Shown here in pieces: positions 52,762-57,457 of a DNA stretch of 64,000 nucleotides. Under the pieces are notes generated by a model. The model made no database searches and was not told the origin of the DNA. It saw nothing but the letters and a program-made list of their open reading frames with translations. Made by a program: the position numbers and the translations under genes. Each line of letters begins with the position of its first letter. Positions within the stretch are counted from its first letter, which is position 1. Origin of the DNA: an uncultured Clostridia bacterium (GTDB lineage: Bacteria > Bacillota > Clostridia > Oscillospirales > Acutalibacteraceae); NCBI GenBank assembly GCA_947623205.1, contig CANQGM010000002.1, positions 121,410 through 185,409 of the forward strand. The letters run 5' to 3'.

Positions 52762-52810
52762 AAAGATACAGAGCAGGGTTTACATAAACCCTGCTCTGTG
52801 TCTTTACAAA
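52762..52810. terminator. terminator after purD
   Basis: AAAGATACAGAGCAGGGTTT / AAACCCTGCTCTGTGTCTTT. Confidence 0.9.
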
Positions 52811-52863: not shown

Positions 52864-55359
52864 TCATTCCGTAATCTGAGTAACGGTATATCCTGCCTCG
52901 GCAACGGCATTGATTATTTCTTCATTTGATACATTGCCTTTTATTTCTGCAATTCCAGTTTCAAGGTTTACCTCTGCGTTAACACCTTCAATAGAATTTA
53001 ATGCCTTTGAAACGTGTGCTTTGCAATGTTCGCACATCATACCGTCTATCAATACTTTTTTCAATTTAATAACTTCCTTTCTGTTTTCAGGCACAATTGT
53101 TTCAAAAATTTTTGCGCCTGTATTTTTATTAGAATATTTAGATGGTTTATTTTTAAAGCCTTTAAGTCTTAAGGCATTTAAAACAACGCAAATTGAACTT
53201 AGGCTCATTGCAATTGTGCCATACATGGGGTCAAGCTTTAAACCAAATGAAGGATAAAATACACCCGCCGCAAACGGAATAAATATAACATTGTATATAA
53301 AAGCCCAGAACAGGTTTTCTTTAATATTTTTAATTGTAGCCCTGCTGAGTTTAACTGTTGTTACAACGTCATTTAAGTCGTCTCTCATTAACACTGCGTC
53401 AGCCGCTTCAATAGCAATGTCTGTTCCTGTTCCTATTGCAATGCCGATGTCTGCGCTCGCAAGGGCAGGGGAGTCGTTGATTCCGTCGCCTACCATGGCA
53501 ACCTTGCCGTCGCTCTTATATTTTGACACTATTTCCTCTTTGTCCTGCGGCAATACTTTTGCATAGGCGGTTCTGATACCCGATTTTTCCTGAACCGCGC
53601 GTGCCGAAAATTCATTATCGCCAGTTAGCATAACAGTATTTATGCCCATATTTTCAAGCTCGTTTATAGCTGCATTTGCATTAGTTTTAATTTCATCTGC
53701 AACGGCAATAATACCCAAAACATTATTTTCATCAGCAAAAATAAGCGGAGTTTTACCGGCTTTAGCAAAATTTTCAGACAATTTATCTGATTTGCCGATA
53801 TTATTTGTAACACTTTTTATATAATCAATATTTCCCGAGAAATATTGACGGTTTTCAATAACTGCGCTTACACCGCTGCCGATTTTATTTTCAAAATTTT
53901 CAGCATTAAGAGTCTTTATATTGGGGAAATTATCGCAAACTGCTTTTGCCAGAGGGTGTTCGCTCATCTTTTCAAGTGAAACAGCTATCTTTATAAATTC
54001 GTTTTCGTTAATATCACAAGTTATTTTAACATCAGTTACTTTTGGACGTCCATAGGTAATTGTACCTGTTTTATCAAAAACAATAGTTTTAAGTTTTCCG
54101 GCAGTTTCAAGAGTTTCAGCCGATTTAATCAGTATTCCGTTCTGAGCGGCCTTTCCGGTTCCGACCATAATAGCCGTAGGTGTAGCAAGACCAAGCGCAC
54201 AGGGACACGAAATTACAAGAACTGCAATAGAAAAAGATATTGCAGAGCCGGCTTCAAAACCTGCCAGACACCAGACAACAAGTGTTATAAGAGCTATTGT
54301 TACAACACCGGGAACAAAGTATTTTGCAACCTTATCTGCAAGGCGGGCAATAGGCGCTTTTGTTGCGGAGGCGTCTTCAACAAGCGTAATAATTTTTGAA
54401 AGTACGGTATCGCTGCCTACCTGCTTTGCACAAAATTTAATATATCCAGATTTAATTATTGTTCCGCCGGTAACTTCATCACCTGTTGTTTTGTCGGCAG
54501 GAATACTTTCGCCTGTAATTGCCGATTCATCAACAGAGCAGAATCCTTCGGTTATTATTCCGTCACATGGAATACTCATACCGTTTTTTACAATAATAAT
54601 GTCGCCAACGCTAACTTTTTCAACGGATACTTCAGTTTCTTTGCCGTCTTTTTCAATTAAAGCCGTTTTAGGCGCAAGCTCAACTAACTTTGTTATAGCG
54701 TCGGAGGTTCTGCTTTTGCTTTTGCTTTCAAGATATTTTCCTATCGTAATAAAAGTGAGTATCATTCCGGCGGCTTCAAAATAAAAGTGCGGGGAGGAGT
54801 GCATTAAAGAGTGATTTACTGTTTGATAGGTGAGAGCATAAAGTTCGTACAGGCTGTAACCGATTGAAACGCTTGCGCCCATTGCTATTAGTGTATCCAT
54901 ATTTGGGCTAAGACCGATTACGGCTTTAAAACCGTTTATAAAATAGCTTTTATTAATTATTACAATGGGAATAAGGAGCAATAATTCTGAAAGACCTTGT
55001 GCAATAGGGTTTGAGCCGAATATATCTGTAACCATACTGCCCATAGAAATAATCATAAGCAAAACAAGAAAAACAATTGAAGCTATTAAACGCCTTTTTA
55101 TGTTGACTTCATCGCTTTTTAATTTTTTATCTTCAGTTTTCTGTTCACCTTTTACTTTGGCAGAATATCCCGCATTTTCAACAGAGCTTATAATTTCATT
55201 AACAGTAGTAATACTATCATCAAAGGTCACTTTCATTGAATTGGTAAGCAAATTAACATTTACGCTTTTAACACCGTTTGTGCTGCTTACTGCCTTTTCA
55301 ACGTGACTGCTGCAATTTGAACAGGTCATTCCAAAAACATCAAAAATTTCATTTTTCAA
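52864..55359 (-). CDS. copA: copper-translocating P1B-type ATPase with N- and C-terminal HMA domains
   Basis: N-terminal GMTCSNC, SCPCALGLATPTAIMVGTGKAA, FDKTGTIT, C-terminal GMMCEHC; TTG start near 55359 proposed because the ORF-track start lies in the promoter. Confidence 0.9.
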   Translation of the reverse strand: MKNEIFDVFGMTCSNCSSHVEKAVSSTNGVKSVNVNLLTNSMKVTFDDSITTVNEIISSVENAGYSAKVKGEQKTEDKKLKSDEVNIKRRLIASIVFLVLLMIISMGSMVTDIFGSNPIAQGLSELLLLIPIVIINKSYFINGFKAVIGLSPNMDTLIAMGASVSIGYSLYELYALTYQTVNHSLMHSSPHFYFEAAGMILTFITIGKYLESKSKSRTSDAITKLVELAPKTALIEKDGKETEVSVEKVSVGDIIIVKNGMSIPCDGIITEGFCSVDESAITGESIPADKTTGDEVTGGTIIKSGYIKFCAKQVGSDTVLSKIITLVEDASATKAPIARLADKVAKYFVPGVVTIALITLVVWCLAGFEAGSAISFSIAVLVISCPCALGLATPTAIMVGTGKAAQNGILIKSAETLETAGKLKTIVFDKTGTITYGRPKVTDVKITCDINENEFIKIAVSLEKMSEHPLAKAVCDNFPNIKTLNAENFENKIGSGVSAVIENRQYFSGNIDYIKSVTNNIGKSDKLSENFAKAGKTPLIFADENNVLGIIAVADEIKTNANAAINELENMGINTVMLTGDNEFSARAVQEKSGIRTAYAKVLPQDKEEIVSKYKSDGKVAMVGDGINDSPALASADIGIAIGTGTDIAIEAADAVLMRDDLNDVVTTVKLSRATIKNIKENLFWAFIYNVIFIPFAAGVFYPSFGLKLDPMYGTIAMSLSSICVVLNALRLKGFKNKPSKYSNKNTGAKIFETIVPENRKEVIKLKKVLIDGMMCEHCKAHVSKALNSIEGVNAEVNLETGIAEIKGNVSNEEIINAVAEAGYTVTQITE

Positions 55360-55397
55360 ATAATTCACCACACTTTTAATTGTTTCCCTAATTAACA

Positions 55398-55455
55398 ATA
55401 ATACATATGAATAATTGTTCATATGTATTATATCATCACGAATATATAATGTCAA
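55398..55455 (-). promoter_or_regulatory. copA promoter and palindromic operator
   Basis: Minus strand TTGACA (55455-55450) -17- TATAAT (55432-55427); inverted repeat ATAATACATATGAA (55398-55411) / TTCATATGTATTAT (55418-55431). Confidence 0.82.
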
Positions 55456-55520: not shown

Positions 55521-56291
55521 TCAGCTGGCACTTTTAATTTGTAATCTAAGCTTGTCTGAAATCATTGCTATAAACTCACTGTTTGTCGGCTTGCCTCTGT
55601 CGTTGTGAATTGTATATCCAAAGTAAGAATTAAGCACATCAATATCTCCTCTGTCCCAGGCAACCTCAATTGCATGACGAATTGCACGTTCAACACGAGA
55701 AGAAGTGGTCTCATACTTTTTGGCAACAGACGGATAAAGTTGTTTTGTAACAGCGTTTATGATTTCCGGTCTTTCAACAGCCATAATAATAGAATCCCTG
55801 AGATAATGATAACCCTTGATGTGAGCCGGTACTCCAATTTCATGCAAAATATCGGTTACTTTAAGCTCAATGCCAAACGTGTCGAACATAATAGGATTAT
55901 TAAGAACATTATCTCTTCCTTTTCTCACCATATTAATAATATTCTCGCACATTTCAGTCATATTATAAGGCTTTAAAACAAAATATGACGCACCCGATGA
56001 CATTATTTCTCGCTCAAGTACGGGACTGTGAAAAGATGAAAAAACTATAAACAACGGTGATTTAATATTTTGTCTTTTAATGCTGCGCATTACACCTATT
56101 GCATCAAGTCTTGTCATAAAAGAGTCCATTAAAACGACATCCGGCTGTTCGTGTTTGATTCGGTCGCATAGTTCGTTTCCGTCTTTTGAGCAAAATGCAG
56201 CAGAAATATTAAAGTTTTGTAATATTTTAATATTTTCCTGAGAAAACTCAACTGCATCTTCTGTGATAATAAGTTTAATTCTGTTCTCCAT
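55521..56291 (-). CDS. spo0A: sporulation transcription factor Spo0A
   Basis: Receiver domain ([17 protein letters not shown]) and C-terminal domain [18 protein letters not shown]...[19 protein letters not shown]. Confidence 0.95.
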
Positions 56292-56440
56292 TGAAAGTTT
56301 CCCCCAGTAATTTTATTTGGATGTGATAATATTACCACAAATTGGTAAAGTTGGCAATAGTTTCCAAAAATTTTTTTTTAAAAAAGAGGAAAATTTTTTA
56401 ACAAAAAAACTTAAAAATCAATTTTCAACAATATATAGTA

Positions 56441-57457
56441 TTAAATCTGATAATTCAACGCCATATTTTGAGCAAATATTCCATATCCTTCATTTGGAGA
56501 ATTTACAAAAACATGAGTTACAGCACCGACAAGTTTTCCATTCTGAATAATAGGACTGCCGCTCATTCCTTGTACGATACCTCCGCATTTCCGCAACAAA
56601 TCATCATCTGTAATTGTTATTACAAAATTTTCATTAGATTTAAGAGAATTGTTGCAAATTTTGCTGATTTTAATATCATAACAGTCTACTTTATCGTTGT
56701 TTAATGTCGTGTATATTTGAGCTTTTCCGGTTCTGACTTCATTGCTTGCAGCAATTTTCACTTTTTTCTTATATTGCCATAAATTATCTTTTATTGTTCC
56801 GTAGATACCAATATCAGTATTTTTTGTCAAAGAACCTATAACCTTATCTGTAAAATAGCCGTTAAGACTTCCCACGTTTCCTGATGTGCTTTTTGTAATG
56901 CCGCTGATGTTTGCTTTTACGGTTTCGCCTGATGCAAGCGGAAGCAGTAAAGATGTGTCGCTGTCGCAAATTCCGTGTCCCAATGCAGCAAAATATGATT
57001 TTTCGCTGTCGTAATAGGTTACTGTGCCAATACCTGCACAGCTGTCACGTACCCATGCTCCTATAAGGTAAACACCTGTGGTGTTTTTTACCGGAGTAAT
57101 TTTCTTTTCGCATTTATTTCCGTTTCGTTCAATTGTCAGTTTAACGGTATTGCCGTTACAATTTTGAGTTATTTTCTGCAAATCCTCATTGCAGGTAATT
57201 TTTTCCCCGTTTGCTTCTTTAATAATATCGTTTACTTTTAATCCGCCGTCTTTGGCAGGACATTTATACATTTGTCCGTCATAATAGCTTTCAAGTTGAA
57301 TTACAATAACTCCGTTTGTATAAAACTTAACACCGAAGGATTCGCCTCCGACATAAACACTTCTGTCAGTTTCCTGCGCATTTGCCGCAAATGGACTTGC
57401 GCTGAATATAATTACTGCTGAAATGGCAACTGATAATAATTTTTTAAATTTTTTCAA
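56441..57457 (-). CDS. spoIVB: SpoIVB peptidase
   Basis: PDZ segment, ALGHGICD, GMSGSPIIQNGKLVGAVTHVFVNSP; directly upstream of spo0A. Confidence 0.92.
   Translation of the reverse strand: MKKFKKLLSVAISAVIIFSASPFAANAQETDRSVYVGGESFGVKFYTNGVIVIQLESYYDGQMYKCPAKDGGLKVNDIIKEANGEKITCNEDLQKITQNCNGNTVKLTIERNGNKCEKKITPVKNTTGVYLIGAWVRDSCAGIGTVTYYDSEKSYFAALGHGICDSDTSLLLPLASGETVKANISGITKSTSGNVGSLNGYFTDKVIGSLTKNTDIGIYGTIKDNLWQYKKKVKIAASNEVRTGKAQIYTTLNNDKVDCYDIKISKICNNSLKSNENFVITITDDDLLRKCGGIVQGMSGSPIIQNGKLVGAVTHVFVNSPNEGYGIFAQNMALNYQI

Follow-up and report, generated by a model that had tools for sequence, protein, structure and literature searches.

The window, that is the whole stretch of 64,000 nucleotides analysed here from an uncultured bacterium of the Clostridia, carries on its minus strand a copA gene with an HMA domain at either end of its product (Table 1). 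The protein shows the motifs CPC (in the membrane), DKTGT, GDGIND, YN and MSLSS and reaches 581 bits against TIGR01511 (cut-off 397), which places it among the CopA-type P1B ATPases. Its own start is uncertain: the candidates GTG 55371, GTG 55368 and TTG 55359 are each preceded by a weak Shine-Dalgarno (SD) sequence, the best of them with a ΔG of only −5.3, which is weaker than that of the internal SD described below. The palindrome behind the promoter presumably resembles operators of the ArsR/SmtB family rather than CsoR or CopY sites. The genes further upstream (55521–57457, minus strand), when read by eye from the sequence, look like those for Spo0A and SpoIVB peptidase, and a terminator (55508–55481) lies between them and copA.

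Table 1. Features of the copA locus in window coordinates
Feature	Position	Strand	Remarks
copA	52864..55371	-	Cu(I)-type P1B ATPase, HMA domains N-terminal and C-terminal
N-terminal HMA domain (GMTCSNC)	55165..55344	-	Residues 9–68 of the frame started at 55368; 74.9 bits
Linker from last membrane helix to C-terminal HMA domain	53065..53160	-	Contains the internal SD
copA sigma-A promoter, extended −10	55427..55455	-	12/12 consensus match (consensus scan)
Palindrome ATATGAACAATTATTCATAT	55405..55424	-	Just downstream of the copA promoter; operator-like
Intrinsic terminator, 14-bp stem	52768..52799	-	3′ of copA
Internal SD AGAAAGGA	53075..53082	-	8 nt complementary to CCUCCUUUCU; ΔG −10.4 kcal/mol
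Internal in-frame TTG start codon (candidate)	53062..53064	-	Most relatives have ATG here
Nested 66-aa CopZ-like chaperone frame	52864..53064	-	Equals the C-terminal domain of CopA; complete HMA domain, MMCEHC

A sequence-only reading of this DNA had proposed that CopA continues in frame into a C-terminal CopZ-like domain, and this is the case: the junction reads ...VPENRKEVIKLKKVLIDGMMCEHC... and the frame is open as far as the stop codon at 52866–52864. The same reading had placed an SD, AAAGGAAG, at 53080–53073, 8 nt before an in-frame TTG at 53064–53062. These coordinates proved exact and AAAGGAAG is correct, the full match to the anti-SD being AGAAAGGA (53082–53075), which pairs over 8 contiguous positions with the 16S 3′ end CCUCCUUUCU. 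The ΔG was computed against ACCUCCUUUCU, taken from the 16S genes of two congeners and of three less closely related genomes because no 16S gene was found in the window's own genome assembly. With the SD and the TTG 8 nt apart, the site has the form of a nested gene in frame, start codon and SD being properly spaced. From the TTG to the stop there are 66 codons, as had been counted, which encode a complete HMA domain (57.4 bits against PF00403, positions 2–62 of 62) with the motif MxCxxC (GMMCEHC); by the Pfam match the HMA fold of this domain is certain. Against NF047957 (NCBIfam CopZ_AFE_1862) the 66-aa domain scores 72.9 bits, which is under the equivalog cut-off of 85, so that this model does not class it as a CopZ equivalog. 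A promoter-like match within the nested start (53064–53036) was rejected as an internal promoter, such matches being at chance level (10 found versus 10.7 expected).

The start and its SD are kept across the Clostridia. In a first set of 94 non-redundant fused genes, collected from relatives and genome contigs, 84 have an in-frame start 8–16 residues before the CxxC (80 of them ATG). At these 84 starts the mean ΔG of the SD is −9.8, versus −2.8 at the 1595 remaining ATGs that lie in frame within the cores of these genes; a ΔG of −7 or lower is reached by 93% of the internal starts versus 4.7% of the other ATGs. Only 0.4% of the 1595 reach −10 or lower, and because so few do, the SD match in the window is more than chance. 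The mRNA around the internal start is open and nearly unstructured (−1.4 versus −8.5 kcal/mol).

The final set, sampled both class-wide and genus-wide, comprises 177 non-identical CopA genes with a C-terminal HMA domain from the Clostridia and their neighbours. An in-frame start is present at the domain boundary in 159 of them (154 ATG, 3 TTG, 2 GTG), and an SD with a ΔG ≤ −7 precedes 151 of these 159 starts, as compared with none in the 18 fused genes that have no start (p = 8e-19). The internal SDs come near to those of real unfused copZ genes in strength (mean −9.8 versus −11.5). The spacing between SD and start has a sharp maximum at 8 nt (95 of 153); AAGGAG-N8-ATG is found, e.g., in Ruminococcus bromii. 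A strong SD word is found at 127 of the 159 internal starts versus 41 of 3089 ATGs that lie in frame elsewhere in these genes. The class sample was picked by the ATPase part alone and is hence unbiased towards the C-terminal domain. Here 53 of the 55 fused genes have both start and SD and two have the start only; among the others, 27 have an adjacent separate copZ, one is undecided, and in 22 neither a C-terminal HMA domain nor an adjacent copZ was found. Two C-terminal HMA domains in tandem are present in the CopA genes L027, L076, L086 and L214, and in the last three of these genes a Met start lies on the last of the two domains.

An SD-like sequence at this place could also act without any initiation, by pausing ribosomes after the last membrane helix for the sake of insertion or folding. 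The site is indeed located about 10–120 codons past that helix (median 28), where a pause could aid insertion. However, the distance from helix to site varies widely and that from site to start does not; the SD comes with an in-frame start some 8 nt away, and it is missing in all 18 genes in which the start is absent. That SD and start are kept or lost together argues against a pausing role, which we consider very improbable, and also against a purely structural Met.

The conservation is found at the level of the nucleotides. At the site, Lys-Glu is written AAGGAG in 81 of 97 cases versus 96 of 637 elsewhere in the same genes (84% versus 15% of KE pairs, p = 2e-41), which elsewhere prefer AAA and GAA. 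The bias withstands thinning of the set to less than 65% identity (23 of 29 at the site versus 21 of 209) and to less than 60% core identity (12 of 17 versus 11 of 122, p = 8e-8). Moreover, the SD is encoded in all three frames, as KE, as GE/GD/GG and as ER/RE (e.g., in Lys-Gly-Glu, Thr-Gly-Gly and Arg-containing peptides), and therefore it is the DNA and not the peptide that is conserved, at the family level beyond what the protein demands. The mean ΔG of −9.8 compares with −6.4 under synonymous recoding (combined p = 6e-15). It should be kept in mind that for single genes this synonymous null is only moderately strong (25% of the genes at p ≤ 0.05), since a linker rich in K and E may happen to encode an SD; the weight is carried by the pooled and codon-pair tests.

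These numbers have to be held against a plain fusion, in which the C-terminal HMA domain works only within CopA, with SD and start left over from a former copZ and not under selection. Unfused copA/copZ tandems do exist, some congeners keep the fused domain without the site, and in the window taken alone the TTG and AAGGAAG could mark early decay. But at the divergence of these genes one expects saturation of the synonymous sites, and a relic would therefore have been randomised and erased, yet AAGGAG prevails at the site even among genes less than 60% identical, and a fused clade of 106 genes (see below) retains the site. We thus regard a plain fusion as unlikely. A free chaperone domain might instead be cut from the linker, which is long and charged, by proteolysis and without internal initiation; this would require neither a start codon nor nucleotide-level choice of an SD, and we hold it to be extremely improbable. 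The sequence-only reading had offered either a fusion by stop loss or dual-use DNA, and the comparison supports the two in combination, given the unfused tandems and the selection on SD and start; that the free protein is made and acts as a copper chaperone is what we infer.

Comparison with relatives carrying unfused genes revealed that in other Clostridia the same elements occur as two genes in the order copA, stop, 11–206 nt, SD, ATG, copZ (L156, L159, L171–L173 and others). The intergenic gap (median 49 nt) and the linker of the fused genes (median 28 codons) overlap in length. Because of these two-gene forms, the best reading is that the fusion arose, as had been surmised from the window, when copA lost the stop codon that had set it apart from a copZ downstream. 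The spacer would thereby have become the linker, and selection would have held the initiation site of copZ in place amid drift of the rest of the linker. In a FastTree tree of 233 CopA cores, a clade of 106 with full support is almost wholly fused and has kept the site (92 with start and SD, 7 with the start only, 4 that lack the start and 2 that lack the domain); for the tree as a whole the fusion history needs several changes. The apparent split genes of the congeners G007, G015 and G033 were rejected as unfused pairs, CopA being there without any C-terminal HMA domain.

In the tree of the neighbourhood, the window stands among genes that have kept ATG and AAGGAG (ten genes of one clade, L239, L005 and L238). 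Start and SD have both been lost in a sister lineage that comprises about ten congeners, and three congeners have lost the whole C-terminal domain; among relatives the natural change of the start is from ATG to ACG. In the congeners L224, L225 and L226, CopA ends right after the last membrane helix, the C-terminal chaperone domain being lost, and no HMA match was found beyond the N-terminal one of CopA. The window site reads AAAGGAAGTTATTAAATTG and that of L005 AAAGGAGGTGTTAGAAATG, with equal register and spacing; the window SD AGAAAGGA is in register with AAAGGAGG of L005, one base being changed within the SD and one in the start codon. The window copy is thus a weaker version of the site (TTG, AAGGAAG).

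Such a copy might be degenerate and out of use, in a lineage that is losing a site which the family uses. The TTG start, the weakening of the SD from AAGGAGG to AAGGAAG and the ten related congeners without the site would fit this. The SD nevertheless pairs over 8 nt with −10.4 and is stronger than that at CopA's own start, register and spacing are those of L005, and TTG starts with an SD are found elsewhere in the window (4 of 41 in a rough scan). Since genes without the start, the congeners that lost it included, never keep an SD this strong, we lean towards the view that the TTG site of the window is still used, but weakly; a copy out of use is possible, if doubtful.

As for a separate copZ, which the sequence-only reading had raised, an HMA search of the window genome (98.98% complete) revealed no free-standing HMA protein. 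The sole further HMA match (the third overall, G000:C3:116379-116498) lies within an open frame of 701 aa, which probably encodes a second heavy-metal ATPase. Many species with the site are without another strong CopZ candidate by the searches made. A free CopZ, taken here as an HMA match that scores 45 bits or more in a frame no longer than 150 aa, is present in 15 of the 63 genomes that have the site and in 4 of the 21 that do not; there is no association, and compensation of site loss by a separate copZ was accordingly rejected. In the congeners that have lost start and SD no strong free CopZ was found either, and free CopZ therefore seems dispensable there. As a separate copZ does not compensate, the free chaperone may be useful rather than essential.

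Taken together, it is quite likely that fused copA-copZ is one gene for two proteins, a pump and a free chaperone made by internal initiation. Ribosomes starting at the copA start would synthesize the pump with the chaperone domain tethered at its C-terminus. Other ribosomes would bind to the internal SD in the unstructured, A-rich mRNA of the linker and initiate at the internal codon in frame, which is ATG in most species but TTG in the window, and the resulting free 66-aa CopZ would ferry Cu(I) to the pump.

Nested in-frame genes expressed by internal initiation are known, e.g., lambda C/Nu3, the short form of CheA and InfB, and they resemble what is proposed for the fused copA in that the C-terminal domain is also made on its own, from an internal SD and an in-frame start. 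No description of a copper pump with a CopZ nested in this way was found in the open-access literature searched. In E. coli the chaperone CopA(Z) is the N-terminal domain of CopA. There the free chaperone is formed from copA by ribosomal frameshifting (Meydan et al., 2017; Drees et al., 2017; as cited in PMC9548414, PMC7558416, and PMC10187127), a precedent to which the sequence-only reading had rightly pointed; otherwise the chaperone is typically encoded by a separate gene (PMC10187127). Both systems have in common that one copA gives a pump plus a free chaperone equal to the pump's own metal-binding domain. They differ in that in E. coli the domain is N-terminal and a frameshift is used, whereas in the Clostridia it is C-terminal and in frame, with internal initiation as the proposed mechanism; the window gene is not a frameshift gene of the E. 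coli type, its candidate chaperone being C-terminal and in frame 0. With the copA-copZ tandems of Gram-positive bacteria the fused genes would share the two products, their order and the SD-ATG before the chaperone (L156, L159, L171–L173), but what is there a stop codon and a spacer of 11–206 nt is here read as linker. We know of no reported internal start in the CopA of Archaeoglobus fulgidus, which is also a Cu(I)-ATPase with HMA domains at both ends. The latter has a C-terminal metal-binding domain (Agarwal et al., 2010; as cited in PMC7558416), but its CopZ, unlike the one proposed here, is encoded separately and carries a fused iron-sulfur domain (PMC7558416).

It is therefore the principle of one gene for pump plus chaperone that is known, and what would be new is another mechanism at the opposite end of the protein. 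Judging from the genes compared, it is probable that in much of the Clostridia pump and chaperone come from one frame by an ancient, selected internal start in copA, independently of the E. coli frameshift. If this is true, the problem of making both pump and chaperone from one copA would have been solved a second time and by a different mechanism, and gene finders would have annotated the long product alone in many anaerobic gut bacteria that are seemingly without CopZ. The natural series of two genes, fused genes with internal start and fused genes with the start lost would then provide a gauge of what a free chaperone is worth.
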